NCBI RefSeq assembly: GCF_013128195.2
Contig: NZ_CP053452.2
Location: 248,001 to 312,000 of the forward strand
Reading direction: 5' to 3'
Length of the DNA: 64,000 bases
DNA from: Frigoriglobus tundricola
GTDB lineage: Bacteria; Planctomycetota; Planctomycetia; Gemmatales; Gemmataceae
How positions within the stretch are numbered: the stretch's first letter is position 1; the number at the start of each line of letters is the position of its first letter. Below the pieces are notes generated by a model. That model worked only from the letters and a program-made list of their open reading frames with translations, had not been told where the DNA came from and did not search any database. Below, in pieces: positions 43,358-53,738 of this stretch. A program made the position numbers and the translations under genes.

Positions 43358-44428
43358 ATGCCAGAAAACGTCATCATCATCGGTTCCGGTCCGGCCGCGT
43401 GGACGGCGGCCATTTACGCGGCCCGCGCGAACCTGAACCCGCTCGTGTTCGAGGGCAACCCGGACGACGAGCGGAACCGCCAGAACGGCACCATGCCCCT
43501 CGGCCAGCTCGCCCTCACCACGGAGGTCGAGAACTTCCCCTCGTGGCCGTCCGGCGACACCCGCCAGTACCTCAAGACCGCGCTCAAAGCGGACGACCCG
43601 GACTTCCCGTATTGGGTGTCCGCGAACAAGGATCAGCCGACGCACGGCATCAACGGCCCGGAACTGATGGCGCTGATGCGCCAGCAGGCGAAGAACTTCG
43701 ACACCCGGGTCGAGTCAAAGGACGTGGTGAAGGTGGACCTGAAGCAGCGGCCGTTCACGCTCACGCTGCACGACGGGAAGACGGTCCAGACGCACACCCT
43801 CATCATCGCCACCGGCGCGCGGGCCAACTACCTCGGCCTGCCCAGCGAGGACAAGTTCAAGAACAAGGGCGTCTCCGCGTGCGCGGTGTGCGACGGCGCG
43901 CTGCCGCGGTTCCGGAACCAGCCGATCGTGGTGGTCGGCGGCGGCGACACCGCGGTGGAGGAGGCGGGCTATCTGACCAAGTTCGCGAGCCGCGTGTCGC
44001 TGCTCGTGCGCCGCGACGTGCTCCGCGCGAGTAAGATCATGGCGGAGCGGGCCACATCGAACCCGAAGATCGACATGAAATGGCACACGGAAGTGGACGA
44101 GGTACTCGGAGAGGACAAGAAGGGCGTGACCGCGGTGCGCGTGAAGAACAACAAGACCGGGGCGAAGGAAGAGCTGCCCGCGGCCGGGCTGTTCCTCGCG
44201 ATCGGCCACACTCCGAACGTCGCCTTCCTCGACGGCCAGGTGGAGCTGACCCCCACCGGTTACATCAAGTGGACGACCCTGGCCCGCACGTACACGAGCG
44301 TGGACGGTGTGTTCGCCGCGGGTGACGTGGCCGACGATTACTACCGCCAGGCCATCAGCGCATCCGGCACGGGGTGCATGGCCGCCCTGGACGCCGAACG
44401 CTACTTGGGGCACCACGGGCTAATTTGA
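43358..44428 (+). CDS. trxB: Thioredoxin-disulfide reductase
   Basis: The 356-residue product has FAD-binding [16 protein letters not shown] at about 8-23, the redox-active CAVC at about 173-176, NADPH-binding [12 protein letters not shown] at about 189-200, and the second FAD motif [16 protein letters not shown]. These are the defining features of low-Mr thioredoxin reductase, which uses NADPH to reduce thioredoxin. It is slightly longer than the 310-320 usual because of an insert after the first FAD motif ([12 protein letters not shown], then [20 protein letters not shown]). It is divergent from argA. No thioredoxin gene is nearby. Confidence 0.93.
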
Positions 44429-44954: not shown

Positions 44955-46343
44955 TCAATTTGGCGGCACCCCCTTCTGGCCTTCGATCGTTCGAGCTTGG
45001 AGGATCGCTTCCGCCGCCTTGTGGCTCGATTCGACGTTCGGTTGCGGAAACAACCCGGCCATCAGGATGATGGCCGCCAGCGTCAGCACCGCGACCCGCT
45101 CGCGCGGGGTGATCGCCAGCGAAACGGTACTGACGTGCTGGCGGCCGGTGAACAGGAGCAGGTACGCGCGCAAGACGGCGATGCCGTTCAGTGCCGCTGC
45201 CCCAATGGTCGCGATCCCAACGAGAGGGTTGGCCGCGACCACGCCGTCCACCAGCACTTCCGCCGCAACGTACCCCATCGTCCCGGGAAAGCCCACACTC
45301 GCTAGCCCGGTCAAGAGGAAGCACACGGCCAACGCCGGGGAGTGTTCGTAGAGCCCGTGGTACCGGGTGAGGGAGAGCCGGCCCAGGCGGGCTTCGAGCG
45401 CCCGGAGCGTCAGCCCCAACCCGCACAGCGACAACATGACCGAGTGCCACAGCGCCAGCGACCCCGTCAGGGTGATCGGTGTGTGGAGCTGCATCCCCAC
45501 AAGGATGAGCGAGGCGTGACTGAGAAACAGGTACGCGAACAGCCGGCGGCCGTCCGTTTGCACCGTCGCCATGCCCGCGGCGTAGAGGGCCGTAATCGTC
45601 GAAACGGTTCCCAACCCGGTCAGCACCCAGTCCGGCGCGACGGGCAGCACGAGCCGCACCGCGAGATAGGCCCCGCTCAGCGGGGTGATGTACAGCAGGG
45701 AGTTCCCGAACGTGCTGCTCTCGCACAGGTCCGCGACCCACAAGTGGAACGGAACGGTGCCGCTGCGGACCAGCACCGCCAGGAGGAGCAGCGCGCCCGC
45801 GAGCGACCGCAGGTGGGGGAAGTTCGCGGCCGTGATCCACCCGGCGAACAGGAGGGCCACGAAGCCCCCCATGTGGAGCGCGTACACCCGCGTTGGCTTC
45901 GCCCGGCTCCGCAACTCGAAGTACGGCGGAACCGTCGAGACCGCCATGAGGCCGATCAGGAGCCACGGGTCCACGCACGCAAAAGCGGCCATGCGCATCG
46001 CCTCGCCGAACAGCATCCAGGCGAACGAGAAGCGGCCCATCTTCGTCCGCACCGTCGCGAGCGCGGTCAGAAAGTGGAGGAGCGCCACCAGCGGCAGGAG
46101 CGAGACGCTCAGTTCGTCCACGGCGAAGATGCCACCCGTCTCGGACGCGGGCCGGCCCCACCCGATCGGGAGGTTGAACGCAAACGCGGCCGCCGCGAGT
46201 ACGCTGCACGCCAGTGTCGCCCCGCTGAACCCCAGGCACCACCGCGACGCGGTCTCGGGGGCCCGCATGCGGCTGACGCACAGCGCCCCCACAAACGGGA
46301 TCGCGACCGCCAACTCGACCCAGGACGGCGCGAACGGGGTCAT
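44955..46343 (-). CDS. Second proton-antiporter-like membrane subunit of the DAB operon
   Basis: The 462-residue product is a polytopic membrane protein of the NuoL/NuoM/MrpA superfamily, with helices such as VYALHMGGFVALLFAGWITA, SGTVPFHLWVADLCESS and TLTGSLALWHSVMLSLCGLG. The charged residues expected in the ion path are partly visible (E in VAAEVL, K rare). Its ATG overlaps the TGA of the preceding subunit by four bases, so it is tightly coupled to it. It probably joins the DAB complex as an extra ion-conducting subunit. The wider gene is not part of a Nuo operon. Confidence 0.85.
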   Translation of the reverse strand: MTPFAPSWVELAVAIPFVGALCVSRMRAPETASRWCLGFSGATLACSVLAAAAFAFNLPIGWGRPASETGGIFAVDELSVSLLPLVALLHFLTALATVRTKMGRFSFAWMLFGEAMRMAAFACVDPWLLIGLMAVSTVPPYFELRSRAKPTRVYALHMGGFVALLFAGWITAANFPHLRSLAGALLLLAVLVRSGTVPFHLWVADLCESSTFGNSLLYITPLSGAYLAVRLVLPVAPDWVLTGLGTVSTITALYAAGMATVQTDGRRLFAYLFLSHASLILVGMQLHTPITLTGSLALWHSVMLSLCGLGLTLRALEARLGRLSLTRYHGLYEHSPALAVCFLLTGLASVGFPGTMGYVAAEVLVDGVVAANPLVGIATIGAAALNGIAVLRAYLLLFTGRQHVSTVSLAITPRERVAVLTLAAIILMAGLFPQPNVESSHKAAEAILQARTIEGQKGVPPN

Positions 46344-47806
46344 ACGTCACTCCGCGCCGCGGCGGCGGCTGCCGGTTCAGGAGGAGCCGGGCACGGCGCG
46401 GCGCCCGAACCGGGCTCGCGCGGATCGGGCGCCGCGTTCAGCCACGCGGTCAGCCGCCACTCCCGGTCGTCGAACCACTGGAACACCGCCACGAACGGGC
46501 GCACGACGAACCGGTCGAGGGCGACGTCCAGGTAGCCGCGTTCGAGCGCGAACCGGTAGACCCACTGCCGGAGCGCGACCGGGAGCAGCCCGAGCCAGAA
46601 CCCGGTCCGGTGCTGGAGCCGCCCGCCGATGGCGTTTTCCAGCCGGCGGTAGTCCTGAAGGAGCGACGGGGCGCGGACGAACTGGAGCGTGCGCATGCAC
46701 GCGTGCCCGATCAGGTGGGCCAGCGCGACGTACCACAAGAACGGGACCCAGTGGCCGGCCCCGATCTCGATCACGATCAGCCCCACCTGGGTCAGCGAGG
46801 CGAACGAGAGCGCGGACTTGATGTCCGTCTGCACGCTCCCGGCCAAGTACGCGAACGCGGCCGTCAGCAGCCCCAGGGCGACGACGGCCACCGCCAGCCA
46901 CACCGAGGCCGCGATCAGGGCGTTCGCCCGGAGCAGCAGGAACGCGCCGAGGTGAACGGACAGCGCGCCGTAAAAGACGGCGCTCGACGGGGTCGGCCCC
47001 TCCATCGCCCGCGGCAGCCAGCCGGAGAACGGGAGCAGCGCCGACTTGCCGGCCGCCGCCAGGAGCAGCAGCAGCCCGACCAGCAGGGCCTGGTCGCTCG
47101 TCGTGGGCGCGGCCCCGCCCGGCCAGCCGGAGCCGAGGAGCCGGTCGAAGTCGCCCTCCCCGGCCATCTGGTGCATCACCACCGCGGCCGTCAGCAGGGC
47201 GGCGTCGGACACCCGGTACACGGCCCAGATCCGCAAGCCGTTGCGGGCCGGCGCCGGGCGCTCCTGGAAGTACGCCACGAGCAGCGCGCTCGACAGCCCG
47301 ACCAGTTCCCAGCCCGTGAACAGCGTCTCGATCGTGCCGGCGGCCGAGGCCGTTACCATGCCGCAAAGAAACACACCGAACAGGACGAAGAACCGGTTGT
47401 ACCCCGGCTCGCGGTGGAGGTACTTCACCGCGAACGCGCCGATCGTGCCGCACAGCAGGTACGACAGAATGACCAGCGGTATGGACAACCGGTCGAAGAC
47501 GAACTTGGCCGAGAAATGGTAGTGCTCGTGACCGGCGCCGGCGTGGGCGTGGATCTCGACCCAGTTGCCCAGGTCGAGAACGACGTGCCGGTGGCCCGAG
47601 ACCAGCATGGACAGGAACAGGCCGCAGGCGGCCAACAGGCCGACGAACGTGAGCCACCGCGTCGCGCGCGCGGAGGTCGCCTCGGTCAGCCGGTACCCGA
47701 GTAAAGACGGCAGCCCGAGCAGCCCGAGCAGAAGGAAGGGCACGGTGACCGTCACCCCGCCGACCCACGTCATGAACTCGATCGTGTCAGGCAGTGTGTC
47801 AGACAT
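46340..47806 (-). CDS. dabB: DabB-type proton-conducting membrane subunit (NuoL-like)
   Basis: The 488-residue product is a NuoL/MrpA-like antiporter subunit with many helices. Family markers are the TGWELVGLSSALLVAYF segment (conserved Glu), KSALLPFSGWLPRAMEGPTP (the classic Lys and GPTPVSA-like turn) and HLIGHACMRTLQF. The C-terminal part turns hydrophilic and Pro/Ala-rich. Its start overlaps the end of dabA by eight bases. In DAB systems this subunit conducts cations that power the DabA hydration of CO2. The pairing with dabA supports the name. Confidence 0.88.
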   Translation of the reverse strand: MSDTLPDTIEFMTWVGGVTVTVPFLLLGLLGLPSLLGYRLTEATSARATRWLTFVGLLAACGLFLSMLVSGHRHVVLDLGNWVEIHAHAGAGHEHYHFSAKFVFDRLSIPLVILSYLLCGTIGAFAVKYLHREPGYNRFFVLFGVFLCGMVTASAAGTIETLFTGWELVGLSSALLVAYFQERPAPARNGLRIWAVYRVSDAALLTAAVVMHQMAGEGDFDRLLGSGWPGGAAPTTSDQALLVGLLLLLAAAGKSALLPFSGWLPRAMEGPTPSSAVFYGALSVHLGAFLLLRANALIAASVWLAVAVVALGLLTAAFAYLAGSVQTDIKSALSFASLTQVGLIVIEIGAGHWVPFLWYVALAHLIGHACMRTLQFVRAPSLLQDYRRLENAIGGRLQHRTGFWLGLLPVALRQWVYRFALERGYLDVALDRFVVRPFVAVFQWFDDREWRLTAWLNAAPDPREPGSGAAPCPAPPEPAAAAAARSDV

Positions 47807-50800
47807 GGGCGGGCGCGGGGCTCCGTGATTGTGCCGGGGCGATTTCGGCGAACTCCAGGTGCTCGCGCCACCCCCGGTACCAGTCCAGCGAACTGGTGGC
47901 GGTCGGCAGCGCGGTCGCGGTCGGGCGGTACTCGCGGAACTCGCCCCGCTCGAACAATCGAATCCGGGCCGAGTCGGGGTCCAGCACGGCCAACTGGACC
48001 CACCCGTTGCGCGTCATGCTGTCGATCATCTTGCCGACCGGGGTGTCCTGCTTCATGACGCCCAGCATCACCTCCGGCGTCGTTTCGCACACGATCAAGA
48101 GCCGCACCGGCTCGTGGATCTCGACCATCTGCCAGGGCAGCCCCGTCCGCAGGTCGCTGGCGGCGCCGTCCATCACGCCGAGTAGGGCGGTAATGTTGTG
48201 CGGCAGTTTCGTCCCGCAGCCGTAGCCGGGCGAATCGACATGGGAGAAGAAGTATTCCAGATTGATGCCGCCGCACACCGGATAGACGGCAGACAGGGTG
48301 CGGGCCAGGATTGCGGCGTCCGGCGTCTCCTGGGTCGGGTCGTAGGACGTCAGGAACGCGCGGCGGTCGAAGAACAGCCCGCGGGTCCGCGCCCGGCGGC
48401 CGACCACGCAAATCGCGTTCGTCGCGTGCCCCAGTTCGGGCCGCGTCTGGGCCAGGTCTTCCGACCGGCCCTCGACGTGCCGCCGCGCCTCGGCAAAGGA
48501 CTGCGTGAGCGACGCCGACATGAACCGGCGGGACCGCTCGTGCGCGTTGCGGGCGCCCGTCGCCTCGAACACCCACCGGTGGTCGGCCAGTTCGGCGCGG
48601 TGCGTTTCGGGCACCCGGTCCAGGTCGAAGAAGGTGACCGAGTCGTCACAGGTGCCGTGGTACCCGCCGACGAACCAGGTCTCGGCGGGCACGACGATCC
48701 CGCGCCCGACGAGCCCGGCCCGGACGCGGGCGTCGTTCATCATCTGGGCGAACGCGCGGGCGTTGGGCGCGCCGGGGCTGCCGCCGCACGCGCCGCAGTC
48801 GTACGCCGATTTGTGCGGGTTGTTCAGGCTGTCCGACCCGTGCCCGATGACGAACACGATCCGCGCGAACCCGCCGGTGAGCCCGATGTCGCGTAACAGG
48901 CGCTCGCCGGACGCGACCATCTCGTCGACGGTGAACCCGACCCGCCCGCACTCGGGGCCGGGGGCCGCTTCGGTCCGCTCGAGCCGCAGCCGGGTGCGCG
49001 GGGTCGGGCGCACGAGCATTCGGCCCAGCCGCACGCGAACCCTGGCGGTCAACCGCGGAAATAGGATGCGGGCCACGAGCGGCACCGTCGCCACCACCCC
49101 GGTGAGCGCGGCCAGCGCGCCGAGGACGACGGCGCGGCTGGCCGTGTGGACGCGGTGGGCGAGCGTCCCCAGCGCCCACCCCGCCCGCTGCTGGAACTCG
49201 TGCGCGCCCTCCAGCCCCTCTTCCGGCTCCTCGCGCACCCAGTGGTTCGGCACGATGACGATCGGGCACAGCGGCACGAAGTGCGCGTCCGTCGCGCCGC
49301 GGTAATAGATCGGAACGGCGAAGAACCCGGCGGCCCCGAAGGTCTCGCAGTCCGGTGCGACCTCTTCCAGGTGGCGGCGGAACGACTCTTCGCGCTCGTC
49401 GAGGCACGTGACGACCTGAAAGCGCGGCGCCGCCGGCTTCTGACTGGCGTGAAGCGCGAGTGCGTCCAGCGTCTGGGCGAGGAACCGGCGCTCGTAGGCC
49501 CGGTGGAAGATGCTGCGCCGCTCCAGGGCGTTGAACGCTTCGATCTCCGCCAGCAGCGACCGCCATTCAGACGGGGAGAGCCGTTGCAGGTTCTCCGGCA
49601 CCCAGCCGAATAGTTGCGCGAGCTGAAACACGGGGAACGCCCGCTCCTCGATCTGCGGCGCGGGCCGCACGAGGCGGGCGCGGAGGTGCGCCCGAACGGT
49701 CGAGAGGGGACCGCGGAAGCCGAGGCACTCACGGGCGGCATCGGCCACCGCGTAGCGGTCCAGAAGGAGCCGGATGGCGACGAATTCGATCAGGCTGCCC
49801 GGCCGGATGGGCCGGGCGACGCGGTCGCCCCGCTCCTCGACCTGACGGAGCATCCCGGCCCACCCGCGAAGGGCCAAGAACGTCGCGGACAGAAAATCGT
49901 CCCACTCGTCCTCGACGACCCCCAGCCCGGCGAGCGCGAGGAGCGCCACTTCGAGCGGGGTCGTTCCCGTGTCCTGAAGCCGAGCGAGTTCCGCACTCAG
50001 GCCGGAGAGCCACGGCGCGGGCAGGCCGCCGCCCCGCCGGTACAGGGAGCAGAACGACTGGAAGAAGCCGCGGTCGGTTTCGGGCAGCGCCCAGTGCGCC
50101 ACGCCCTGATCCAGATACGCGGCACAAAAACGGACGAGCAGATCGTTTACCGCCAGATCGGTGTCGAACCCCGTTACGGCCAGCACCAGGTCGCGGTGGC
50201 GAACCGGGTCGGCTTCTGCCGGCGGTGGTGGAGCGTGGGCGGCGCCCTGCTGGCACACCGCCCAGAGCGATTCGAGCGCGAACGCTTCCCAGGTCTTTTC
50301 GTTCCAGTTCTCGATGTCCGCCTCGCCGAAACGGGCAAGCAGCGCCCGCGCCCAGGCGGGGGTCGCACCGTTGCGGCCCCGCAGATCGCGCATGACCCAC
50401 CGCCGCGTCTCGGCGATCAACATCAGCCGCGCGTCCGCCGACGCCTCGGGCCGCACTTTCTTCAGCGCGTCGGTCTCGGCGACGAACCAGTTCAGTTCGA
50501 CCGCCGGGGCGGTCACGACCGGCGATTGCAGCATCGCCAACCGCAGTTCCGACCGGGAACACAGCCCGCCAACCGGTTCGGCGGCCCAGGCGCCGAGGTC
50601 ATCGGCCAGGACCGCCTGGAGTTCCGACAACCGGATGCGCCCGCGTGCCAGCGCCGCCCGGTAGCGGTCTTCGGTCAGGTACGGTTGGCACCCGAACACC
50701 TCGGCGGCGTGGCGCACCGCCTGATCGAACGACAGGTGTTCGAACGCGTGCAGCGTGTTGTGGTGGATGAAGACGGTGATCGGCCCCTGGGCCGGGAGCA

Positions 50801-50876
50801 GGTGCGCGGCGTGTTCGATCGCGTGCCGCAGCCGGTCCTGTCCCACGTCCGGCGTATCGGACCGATCAGCGGGCAT
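47799..50876 (-). CDS. dabA: DabA (DUF2309) inorganic carbon uptake protein
   Basis: From ATG at 50876 the product has 1025 residues (GTG 50897/50900 are alternatives). It shows the DUF2309 start FIHHNTLHAFEHLSF. The beta-carbonic-anhydrase-like zinc site is complete: Cys and Asp in VTCLDEREES (about 491/493), His in VIGHGSDS (about 679) and Cys in AYDCGACGG (about 694). The Cys-x-Asp and the His-to-Cys spacing of 15 equal those of characterised DabA. With DabB it forms an energised CO2-to-bicarbonate pump at the inner membrane face. First gene of a three-gene operon. Confidence 0.92.
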   Translation of the reverse strand: MPADRSDTPDVGQDRLRHAIEHAAHLLPAQGPITVFIHHNTLHAFEHLSFDQAVRHAAEVFGCQPYLTEDRYRAALARGRIRLSELQAVLADDLGAWAAEPVGGLCSRSELRLAMLQSPVVTAPAVELNWFVAETDALKKVRPEASADARLMLIAETRRWVMRDLRGRNGATPAWARALLARFGEADIENWNEKTWEAFALESLWAVCQQGAAHAPPPPAEADPVRHRDLVLAVTGFDTDLAVNDLLVRFCAAYLDQGVAHWALPETDRGFFQSFCSLYRRGGGLPAPWLSGLSAELARLQDTGTTPLEVALLALAGLGVVEDEWDDFLSATFLALRGWAGMLRQVEERGDRVARPIRPGSLIEFVAIRLLLDRYAVADAARECLGFRGPLSTVRAHLRARLVRPAPQIEERAFPVFQLAQLFGWVPENLQRLSPSEWRSLLAEIEAFNALERRSIFHRAYERRFLAQTLDALALHASQKPAAPRFQVVTCLDEREESFRRHLEEVAPDCETFGAAGFFAVPIYYRGATDAHFVPLCPIVIVPNHWVREEPEEGLEGAHEFQQRAGWALGTLAHRVHTASRAVVLGALAALTGVVATVPLVARILFPRLTARVRVRLGRMLVRPTPRTRLRLERTEAAPGPECGRVGFTVDEMVASGERLLRDIGLTGGFARIVFVIGHGSDSLNNPHKSAYDCGACGGSPGAPNARAFAQMMNDARVRAGLVGRGIVVPAETWFVGGYHGTCDDSVTFFDLDRVPETHRAELADHRWVFEATGARNAHERSRRFMSASLTQSFAEARRHVEGRSEDLAQTRPELGHATNAICVVGRRARTRGLFFDRRAFLTSYDPTQETPDAAILARTLSAVYPVCGGINLEYFFSHVDSPGYGCGTKLPHNITALLGVMDGAASDLRTGLPWQMVEIHEPVRLLIVCETTPEVMLGVMKQDTPVGKMIDSMTRNGWVQLAVLDPDSARIRLFERGEFREYRPTATALPTATSSLDWYRGWREHLEFAEIAPAQSRSPAPAHV

Positions 50877-51197
50877 TTCGGGTTCCGCGCGAGTCACCAC
50901 AAAACGCCGAGGCGTCTTGGGTGCAGAGGTAAAGAACGTGATTCACTCCGAAAGGTTACTCGGTTGTAACCGCTGCGCCGAGCCTGATCGTGTCGAAGAC
51001 TCGGTTTTTCAAAGAGTGTAGCAGCAGGCGGGAGCGAGTCCGGGATCGGGAGGACCGGGCGGGGACCCGTCTTCGGATCTGCACAAGACCTGCCCCTCCC
51101 CCCTCCCCGAAGGGAGGGGGCGGAGGGTTAGGTCTTTCTTCACTTACGCACCGGAAGACGCTGCGCAACCCGCTCAGCCCCGATTGCTAATGTATCG
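50877..51197. other. Intergenic region upstream of dabA
   Basis: No gene is seen. It contains a copy of the palindromic CCTCCC/GGGAGG repeat at 51091-51139 with the flank GGTTAGGTCTTTCTTCAC, close to the porin gene fragment. The dabA promoter should lie between 50877 and about 51080, but no clear core elements can be named. Confidence 0.5.
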
Positions 51198-52000
51198 CTA
51201 GAACTGCCAGTGGAGTCTGGCCTGGAAGACGTTGACCGGGCCGCGGTCACGGTTGAACGCCGGGTTCGCGAAGAGCTGGTAGTTGAACGCCAGGTTTACG
51301 CCCTTCGTGATGGCAAAATCATAATACGCTTCCAAAGACATCTCGGGGGCGTAGGTCAAGTTGCTGTCGCCGTTCAGAATGCCCGTGCCACCGGCCTTCA
51401 GGAAGGCCTGCTGCTGGGACGAAGCGCCGACCAGGTTCCCGACCAAACCGAAGGTGTCGCCGGGCCGGCGCCATGCGGCGCCTTTGACGCTCAGGCCCAG
51501 TTGTACCGTCCAGTCCACGTCGGTGTACGCCGCTGCCGAAACGTGGCCGTCTTGCCAGCCGAGCCGACCGAACAGGCCGAGGTTCTTCGCAACCTCCTGT
51601 TCCCAGTTCACCCCGAAGCCGTACTTGTACCGGAACGCGAAGGCACCCCTTGGGATGGTCGCTTCCGTTCCTTGCGGGCTGTTGAGAGGCGGAGGAGAGG
51701 CGAGCAGCAGCGGGGTCGCCACGTTATAGCTGGCGAGGTACCCGTGGTCGACCCAGGCCTGGAGCCGGACGGCCCCGGGACGGTCCGCTACGCGCCACCG
51801 GCGCTCCCATTCCAGTATCATCCCCCACTCTTTCCAAAACTCCCCGTCGGAGGTAACCTCCCCGGATTCGATGGGGTACGCGAAGATGCGGTCATCGGCG
51901 GTGAGGCCGTTCGGGGTGCCGGGCAGTTGGAACCAGCCGTAGCGCAGGGTCCAATCCTTCTGGTTCAGTTCAAGGGCAATTCCCGTGGTGTACCCGATGG
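51198..52000 (-). pseudogene. OprB-type porin, 3' fragment
   Basis: This fragment gives the C-terminal half of a carbohydrate porin: IGYTTGIALELNQKDWTLRY, DGEFWKEWGMILEWERRWRV, LGLFGRLGWQDGHVSAAAY, and the typical last strand NVFQARLHWQF ending in Phe. The 5' part lies at 54962-55810. The two halves join in frame if 52001-54969 is removed (two ISs plus one target copy), giving 547 residues. The upstream in-frame residues to 52043 belong to the IS. The gene is inactivated by insertion. Confidence 0.9.
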
Positions 52001-53738
52001 GGAGGTCACGCCGCGGTTTGCGCCGGGACATCCTCTGATTCATGGCAGAGTGTATCTCGTTTGCGGAACGGGCACCCGGGCCGTTCCGCGAAGAACCGGC
52101 TCATGCGGTCGTCTTGGCTCAGCACGGCGGCACGCAGTTGCAAGATCGATTCGGCTCCCGCGGGACGGTTCCAATGCTTCTGCTTGCTCTTCACCCGAGC
52201 GTTGACCTCGCCCACCAGTGATTCGACCAAACTGCTCGTCGTTGGCAATCCCTCCCGTCGGTACCGCGGGTACGCCATGCGGTCCCGATTGTTCCCCAAG
52301 TAGCTCCGCGCCTGGGCCACCACGCGACGCGGATCTCGACGCTCCTCGGCCGTCTGTGCCTCACCCGGCGGGGACTCGCCCAGGCGCTCCTGCCAGTGGT
52401 CCAATTCGGTCAGCACGTCCCCGACGCGACCCTGCCAACACGCGCGCATCCAGACCAAGTATTGGGACCAACCCGATGTCTCATCGGCGCTCACCGCCGT
52501 AGCCGACGAGAACACGTAACAGACCGCGTGCAGGAAATCCACGATCGGTTCGAAGGTCCCGAAGTACCCCCGATGGATCGACCAGTTGTATGCGCTACCG
52601 TCGGCCACGAACGCCCGACGCGGGGCCTCATAAAAGTGCCGCTCTTGGGCCTCCGCACCCATCATCGGACCGAACGAGGCACTCGTCTCCAGGCTCGCCA
52701 CACAGGTCCTCACCAACCGCTTCGGGGACCAACGTTCGGACCCTTCGGATTCCCCGACCAGCGGCACCGGAGGCGTCGGTTCGTCCGGGTTTTCTTGGGC
52801 CGCCGCTTCGCCCGCCGATCCCTTCATCAGCTGCACCAGACGCTGCACGCGACGCGGACATCGGAACGATTCGGGCGGCTCGGGACACGGGTCCGCGGCG
52901 AACGCGGGACCGCTCAACGTGGCCAGACACGCGACCTTGTCCTCCTTGTTCTGGGCCTGGTGAACACCCGGACCGGCGTCCGCGGCGCGGGTCCGAATCC
53001 GCCCCCCGTCGATCTCGACCACCACGGCCTCGGGCACCACCGCGGTCCGGGGTTCCAACTGGCGGCGCCGGTGCTCGACCACCTTCTGGTCGCGCGCGGC
53101 GATGAGTTCGCGCCCGACCTCGTGAGCCAATCGGCGCACCTGGTTCTCGCTGATGTGGACCCCGGTCATCTGCACGGCGTCGGTGGCATCACGGAACGAG
53201 GAGAACCGTGCGGCGGCCGTGACGATGCGCTGGATGACCGAGGAACTGAAGGCGTGCTCATCCAACCCCAGAGTCGCCCGCAGGGGGAAAAAAGTCCCGT
53301 CGGCAGGCGGGACAGTGGGCGATCCGTTCGGCCTGTTGAACCGTGGCCCCTTGCGCCGCGAGTGCCCGAGTGTGCGTGCGGGTGGGGCAACGCTCGCCAC
53401 ACACGGGACACGGGGACTCGTCGGGCACCTTCTGGGCCTGCTGTTGGAGCATCTGTTGGAGGGCGCCCTCGGTCAGCCCTTGTGCCGCCGCGGTGGCGAT
53501 CTGCTCCATCGTTCGGAAATCGACGTCCAACCCCGGCCCGTCCTCCCCGAACGCTCGCTTGGAGACGATTTTGCCCCACTCGGCCGCCAACGCCCGCAAC
53601 CGGTCGAGTTCCTCGGCTGTGAAACGCGGTGTGCTCATGACTCGTCCTGCACTGCACTTGCGACGAATGCGCCCCATGCGTTTCCTATCCCGCTTGCACA
53701 GCGTCGCAAAGCCCACTGCAAACCGCGGCGTGGCCTCC
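52001..53738 (-). mobile_element. ISKra4-family insertion sequence, about 1738 bp
   Basis: Ends at 52001-52021 (starting GGAGGTCACGCCGCGGTTTG) and 53718-53738 are inverted repeats with one mismatch in 21. Flanking copies of CCGATGG (51994-52000 and 53739-53745) mark a 7- or 8-bp target duplication; one base is ambiguous. It lies in the OprB-type porin gene, directly next to an IS1-like element. Confidence 0.9.
52006..53638 (-). CDS. ISKra4-type transposase in two overlapping frames
   Basis: The first frame (53258-53638; open from 53716) gives MSTPRFTAEELDRLRALAAE and a zinc-binding CPVCGERCP...CPACRRDF. The second frame (52006 to about 53290) continues with FFPLRATLGLDEHAFSSSVI, VVVEIDGGRIRTR (first Asp), FVADGSAYNWSIHRGYFG (second Asp) and SSLVESLVGEVNARVK (Glu). 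The frame change is within ACTTTTTTCCCCCTG on the coding strand at about 53283-53297 and again needs +1 (or -2). Each part looks otherwise intact. Confidence 0.85.

Follow-up and report, generated by a model that had tools for sequence, protein, structure and literature searches.

We describe a trio of overlapping genes, dabA-dabB-dabC, from the planctomycete Frigoriglobus tundricola, located on the minus strand of a 64,000-nucleotide stretch of contig NZ_CP053452.2 (positions 248,001 to 312,000; this whole stretch is referred to as the window, and positions are counted from its first letter). The dabA-dabB-dabC trio is a conserved unit and is widespread. The DAB kind of system is understood here as a dissolved inorganic carbon (DIC)-accumulating, vectorial carbonic anhydrase (CA), in which DabA would hydrate CO2 in the cytoplasm, and the reaction would be driven by the entry of an ion, most likely a proton, through the membrane part. 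Judging from the sequences, DabC (a working name used here for the product of the third gene) is very likely an integral third subunit of a complex of this kind. We also lean towards the view that the three genes encode one DAB-kind membrane complex with a split proton channel, the outer half in DabC and the inner half in DabB, which would drive CO2 hydration by DabA.

Gene arrangement and distribution of the trio

The gene dabA (50876..47799; 1025 amino acids, aa; PF10070), for which an alternative GTG start exists at 50900, encodes the long form of the zinc-binding cytoplasmic subunit with its hydrophobic finger. It is followed by dabB (47806..46340; 488 aa), whose NuoL-like product has transmembrane (TM) helices 1-11 and a C-terminal amphipathic helix, TM12-15 being absent, and by dabC (46343..44955; 462 aa), which encodes a NuoM-like protein of 14 TM helices. 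The overlap between dabA and dabB is ATGTCTGA (8 nt) and that between dabB and dabC is ATGA (4 nt), both as claimed in the original prediction, an earlier note on this DNA made from its sequence alone. A scan for terminators and promoters stayed at chance level (5 terminator-like sites vs 4.6 expected, and 0 promoters). We also considered whether the trio is part of a complex I locus and rejected this: the PF00361 matches in the range of the window are the two operon genes only, in a search that did not extend to other complex I genes.

Among 148 Planctomycetia genomes, 96 contain PF10070 and 76 have a match to DabC at E 1e-20. For DabA, 121 of the 141 rows were used, the other 20 being short fragments. 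The count by length excludes 14 partial matches among the 121, three of which (from G032 and G086) have DabC downstream. The 107 full-length matches comprise 75 long DabA (span of at least 2550 nt) and 32 short, canonical ones. DabC lies 1.6-1.9 kb downstream of 66 of the 75 long DabA and of none of the 32 short ones; the original prediction had proposed a search for three-gene loci in other planctomycetes and would have counted the absence of the third gene from most related loci against itself, and the gene is present at most of them. Nine long DabA have no DabC behind them, five of which stand at contig ends (G141, G064, G097, G080, G147). In G034 and G062, dabA is found apart from the dabB-dabC pair on the same contig, and dabB and dabC remain together. 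The DabB proteins of G105 and G125 are 711 and 745 aa long. By hhalign (probability 94.6, E 7e-8), the C-terminal portion of these proteins matches the DabC family, E362 of DabC being paired with an Asp in the sequence shown in the alignment, and neither genome has a separate DabC match, so that these DabB are likely dabB-dabC fusions. Other candidate fusions, from open frames of 934-1055 aa, were rejected; in those examined (L052-L055) dabB is found in its own, different frame. The gene order also differs between the two forms: long loci have dabA-dabB-dabC, and in those canonical loci of planctomycetes that were examined (L084-L090) dabB comes first and dabA second.

A scan of genome contigs with the DabC alignment (one ten-residue motif) gave the best 80 loci of 216 relatives, which were thus chosen for DabC. 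In 75 of the 80, dabC is found directly after a truncated dabB, and 65 have a long dabA. Of the five exceptions, three (L135, L152 and L163) begin at the edge of a contig; the other two, L160 and L211, are irregular. Seven of the 80 loci carry the labels of other phyla or classes (a proteobacterium, Thermoanaerobaculia, two Myxococcota, Verrucomicrobiota, Eremiobacterota and Wallbacteria) and have the same order in all seven cases; these labels may err, because they are those of metagenome bins. In 55 of the 72 loci that could be measured, no gap separates the stop of dabB from a start of dabC, the two overlapping or adjoining; the nearest in-frame start was taken each time, which biases the distances downwards. 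Since the dabA-dabC linkage and the gene overlaps recur widely, chance neighbourhood was ruled out. In a phylum-wide draw, 67 of 294 genomes match DabC at E 1e-25, but complex I NuoM probably accounts for many of the hits of about 90-130 bits; L124, for example, is a nuoL-nuoM-nuoN run. Further clear trios or parts of them are found in L113-L118 and L120-L123, and a lone C-terminal DabC piece in L119. As a separate observation, L160 (dabA-dabC) and L201 (dabB-dabC) are two contigs of one Schlesneria bin (JAQGHU01), which therefore holds two dabC copies.

The two membrane proteins had been described as two distinct NuoL/MrpA-like proteins. They are two different PF00361 proteins (DabB at profile positions 6-226 and DabC at 81-288 of 294) and DabB is NuoL-like, but the third is NuoM-like by profile and tree. 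In the tree of 53 proteins, of the kind that the original prediction had called for, every class forms one group and the two proteins fall in distinct lineages. DabC joins NuoM (support 100/99) as the sister of the three NuoM rows, yet outside them (NuoM 100/97, DabC 100/99). Truncated DabB form one clade (100/100), with the N-terminal parts of the two likely fusions included. This clade unites with canonical DabB (92/80), and NuoL stands next to the two (93/82). From this placement DabC is therefore taken to be NuoM-derived, and the candidate explanation that it is a second DabB copy was ruled out.

Conserved residues of the three subunits

Alignments A4, A5 and A6 contain 42, 42 and 24 rows (41 of 60, 41 of 65 and 23 of 53 candidates, plus the window protein in each), and the DabA columns were counted in 119 distinct sequences (94 of 104 long and 25 of 30 canonical rows, after exclusion of 8 and 5 duplicates, respectively, and of two gapped long rows). 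The window DabA matches PF10070 at full length (747/747 profile positions, E 2.7e-230). Its zinc site had been predicted to be complete, and C491, D493, R495, H679 and C694 do align with C351, D353, R355, H524 and C539 of DabA2, the roles of which are described in PMC13144422. On the minus strand, the zinc Cys and the Asp-Arg dyad (C491-x-D493-x-R495) are located at 49392..49406, and the zinc ligands H679 and C694 at 48840..48842 and 48795..48797. All five residues are kept in 94/94 long and 25/25 canonical DabA.

The finger helix (residues 582-603; 49068..49133) differs. In DAB2, the finger Glu444 of DabA2 occupies the place of NuoL K399/D400, and the substitutions E444A and E444Q abolish activity (PMC13144422). 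The window DabA has Ala590 at this place, and none of the 94 long DabA has an acid in the column (A 49, G 32, S 4, T 3, L 3, V 2, W 1), vs Glu in 24/25 canonical ones. If the whole finger window is considered, to guard against misalignment, an acid is found in 25/25 canonical and 3/94 long DabA. The long form exceeds DabA2 by about 150 residues (1025 vs 870) and has a conserved finger base (S580 in 21/24 and R581 in 23/24). Variant DabA were also observed: open frames of about 590 aa match the DabA profile at 2-282 and 570-747 with the middle absent (G033:C1:3629368-3630900, G049:C1:2595114-2596643, G088:C31:157671-159200), and all three genomes also have a full DabA. L091:4736-8049 (genome G032) reads DabA in two overlapping frames, the gene thus being broken or misassembled, and L132:2247-6689 in the planctomycete genome G093 is a canonical DabB-DabA fusion of 1480 aa.

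The AlphaFold2 model of the window DabB, built from 42 rows (mean predicted local distance difference test, pLDDT, 87), has 11 TM helices by our own assignment and the C-terminal amphipathic helix. It superposes on residues 1-562 of E. coli NuoL (7p7c_L) over 409 residues at 3.2 Å (Z 39.9); the approximately 150 NuoL residues skipped in this predicted fold are taken as TM12-15. With the TM12 positions missing, NuoL K399/D400 are absent in 42/42 truncated DabB. The same rows retain NuoL E144, R175, D178, K229, K305 and H334 in 42/42 and H338 in 41/42. Among these, E167 (NuoL E144, the TM5 Glu) is located at 47306..47308 and K254 (NuoL K229, the TM7 Lys) at 47045..47047, both on the minus strand. 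A Glu at the E144 place is found in none of the seven canonical planctomycete DabB, and DabB2 has Ile151 there (PMC13144422). DabB2 (9rd0) was not among the 50 matches listed for the DabB model and was found by sequence instead.

The DabC model (mean pLDDT 90.5) predicts a complete NuoM fold, with Z 45.5 and 2.1 Å over 430 residues for Thermus 4he8_G. DabC is not a NuoM proper: besides its place outside the NuoM group, it scores 124 bits against the NuoM NCBIfam model, below the curated cut-off of 263.8, and has lost channel residues. The TM5 Glu is present in 0/43 rows, the TM7 Lys is replaced by Arg in 42/43 and the TM8 Lys is present in 0/42. What is kept is an acid in TM12, E362 (45258..45260, minus strand), at the aligned place of NuoL D400 (E 38, D 4 of 42 rows). 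Plasmid searches with DabB (P0002) and DabC (P0003) found only distant antiporter-type matches, of at most 35.3% and 30.3% identity, respectively, among the 40 matches listed for each.

A possible split channel and its alternatives

In complex I, each antiporter-like subunit has two half-channels, one made by its N-terminal repeat and open to the cytosol, the other made by its C-terminal repeat and open to the periplasm, and protons hop between NuoL TM5 and NuoM TM12 (PMC10212512). Because the trio keeps this interface, with the TM5 Glu and TM7 Lys in DabB and TM12 in DabC, one composite channel feeding DabA would be the arrangement to expect. DabB would retain only the cytoplasm-facing half (TM1-11 with Glu167 and Lys254). 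The NuoM-like DabC, itself without the inner-half residues, would supply the outer one, including the acid E362. Protons would then pass from the outside to E362 in TM12 of DabC, on to E167 in TM5 and K254 in TM7 of DabB, through the cytoplasmic half of DabB and to DabA. A tentative extension, which we consider quite possible without favouring it, is that a dedicated NuoM-derived subunit has taken over the outer half, with its acid, from DabA/DabB. The result would be a proton-driven carbonic anhydrase of three subunits, whose only ion path is the L-TM5/M-TM12 contact, an inter-pump relay in complex I.

The original prediction had expected either a larger complex or a different ion coupling. 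That the third gene belongs to the system is supported, since dabC is found at most loci with a long DabA, shares bases with dabB and in two genomes seems to form a fusion with it; a larger complex is therefore likely. Different coupling fares less well: DabC does not appear to be a complete pump in its own right, and a shared channel fits better, because DabC has no TM5 Glu, TM7 Lys or TM8 Lys at the aligned positions and DabB is truncated.

Several points weigh against the split channel. The contact between DabB and DabC would follow by analogy from complex I. DabC E362 falls in the column of NuoL D400, which is the one after that of NuoM E407, and an acid at the E407 column itself is found in only 4/43 DabC rows (E 3, D 1). 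A second conserved acid, E143 (E 34, D 4 of 42), lies nine residues beyond the TM5 Glu column and could act in a half-channel of DabC's own; also, a Lys is found somewhere in the DabC TM7 window in 5/42 rows, never at the K234 place. The inner half of DabB is altered as well, as NuoL H254 and K342 are lost in 42/42 truncated DabB (replaced by Tyr and Arg, respectively). For DabA, the three long sequences with an acid in the finger window run counter to the pattern, as does the canonical L002, the 1/25 without the finger Glu at the E444 column. At the level of loci, L160 (dabA-dabC) and L211 have no detected dabB in between; L196, L199 and L201 have no dabA in the 2-5 kb upstream; and the fusion evidence is one moderate profile match.

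The alternative that survives best, though we regard it as rather unlikely, is that DabC is a structural or regulatory subunit and that ions pass DabB and DabA otherwise, e.g. by another polar residue of the long DabA or by DabB dimers. The loss of most channel residues from DabC would fit this, as would the additional 150 residues of the long DabA and its conserved S580/R581. It would leave unexplained why the TM12 acid is kept in 42/42 DabC, why the loss of the acid from DabA coincides with the presence of DabC, and why DabB retains the TM5 Glu, which in complex I faces a neighbour. We find it improbable that DabC is an extra ion-translocating unit, by which the complex would move more ions per CO2 than DAB2. 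A relation between the number of membrane subunits and that of ions was suggested in 2017 (PMC5700660), and DabC has the whole 14-TM NuoM fold in its model, the TM12 acid and the further acid E143; however, the TM5, TM7 and TM8 residues of a pump are the ones it lacks, and as the outer half is missing from the adjoining DabB itself, the addition of DabC need not mean more complete channels. Least probable of all is a complex that does not serve CO2 uptake, such as one building an ion gradient from an exergonic reaction (suggested in 2017; PMC5700660) or importing bicarbonate with Na+, as MpsAB was proposed to do as a sodium bicarbonate cotransporter (PMC6689103): a SulP permease after dabC in 32/70 loci could be read in its favour, but the zinc and Asp-Arg site is complete, and a divergent beta-CA gene upstream of dabA in at least 14/75 long loci, and in 0/32 short ones among the matches listed, points to CO2/bicarbonate.

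Relation to known systems and genomic context

The closest described systems include DAB2 of Halothiobacillus neapolitanus (DabA2/DabB2; PDB 9rd0; PMC13144422), which shares with the trio the DabA family, the zinc Cys/His/Cys, the Asp-Arg dyad and a NuoL-like DabB, the places of NuoL K229, K305, H334 and H338 being kept. The whole channel of DAB2 consists of one 15-TM DabB and the DabA finger glutamate. Unlike DAB2, the trio has a third, NuoM-like subunit, a DabB without TM12-15 yet with the TM5 Glu, and a DabA without the finger Glu444. As stated in the original prediction, classical DAB systems have one DabB; however, DAB1 of H. neapolitanus (hneap_0907-0909) is already known as a system of three subunits, in which the third protein is a small hypothetical transmembrane protein (PMC13144422). 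DabC, with 462 aa and 14 TM helices, is not of this type, hneap_0908 having been compared by its description only.

Looking at other relatives, MpsABC of Staphylococcus aureus is a DAB homologue in a non-autotroph and, like the trio, has a third gene downstream (PMC6689103). That gene, mpsC, is located behind a weak terminator and is dispensable (PMC6689103); unlike mpsC, dabC overlaps dabB and is widely kept. Compared with complex I, DabB groups in the tree on the side of NuoL and DabC on that of NuoM, and acids are kept at the NuoL TM5/NuoM TM12 interface; unlike NuoL and NuoM, each keeps only some of the channel residues, and the cytoplasmic partner is presumably DabA. Also, the 2017 COGNAT paper (PMC5700660) reported dabA homologues upstream of nuoL, often with nuoM nearby, and 'clade C' ybcC operons with NuoM (COG1008) and SulP (COG0659) genes nearby, which are very probably the same group as the trio. 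Clade C was named from gene neighbourhoods, and an analysis of the residues, function or subunits of the membrane proteins was not found in the available part of that paper. The gene layout, noted in 2017, is thus not new; the anatomy (truncated DabB, loss of the finger Glu and the DabC residue pattern) was not found in print in a search that was thin on subscription papers and had the original 2019 DAB paper outside it. The trio is real and widespread, and only partly known.

The SulP permease gene may be a fourth member of the operon. It was counted when it starts no further than 2.5 kb beyond dabC and in the same orientation, the 70 loci being those that leave 1.5 kb or more of space, and it mostly starts within about 100 bases; a representative (L206:8060-10117) contains PF00916 and a STAS domain. 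Examples of the divergent beta-CA gene are L074:4754-5227, L204:476-949 and that of L083. Neither the SulP nor the beta-CA gene was found in the window (tblastn, one query each). A histidine kinase and a winged-helix response regulator are found on the opposite strand ahead of dabA in L145:99-1517 and L205:1250-1993, and their relatives are present in 18 and 13 of the 80 loci, respectively (BLAST clustering, anywhere in the locus). In the window, a convergent pyridine nucleotide-disulphide oxidoreductase gene lies beyond dabC (43358..44428). Upstream of dabA, at 51198-53716, an OprB-type porin gene lacks the first third of its profile (only positions 132-372) and abuts an ISKra4-like transposase in two frames, which scores below the cut-off of that model; an insertion has probably cut the porin gene.

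The host genome has no match to the large chain of ribulose-1,5-bisphosphate carboxylase/oxygenase (RuBisCO), which agrees with the heterotrophic setting that had been predicted. It has five beta-CA matches and no alpha-CA match, and a supply of bicarbonate for carboxylation reactions in the host is plausible. A lack of beta-CA as the reason for the operon was rejected, as 135 of the 148 Planctomycetia genomes have a beta-CA match. RuBisCO large-chain matches are found in 27 of these genomes and exceed 400 bits in only two (G044:C231:8092-9015 and G147:C508:4972-5895), both of which also have trio genes.

The structure of DAB2 (2026) made it a question by what means the hydration of CO2 is driven by entering ions, and it singled out one essential acid, E444. 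The trio is a large natural group, mostly of Planctomycetota, without an E444-type acid and the surrounding TM helices and with a third subunit that has an acid at the matching place; the coupling model is therefore testable by residue swaps. The trio also bears on how complex I relays protons between its subunits, and it would be a distinct type of inorganic-carbon uptake, in organisms mostly without a RuBisCO large-chain match.

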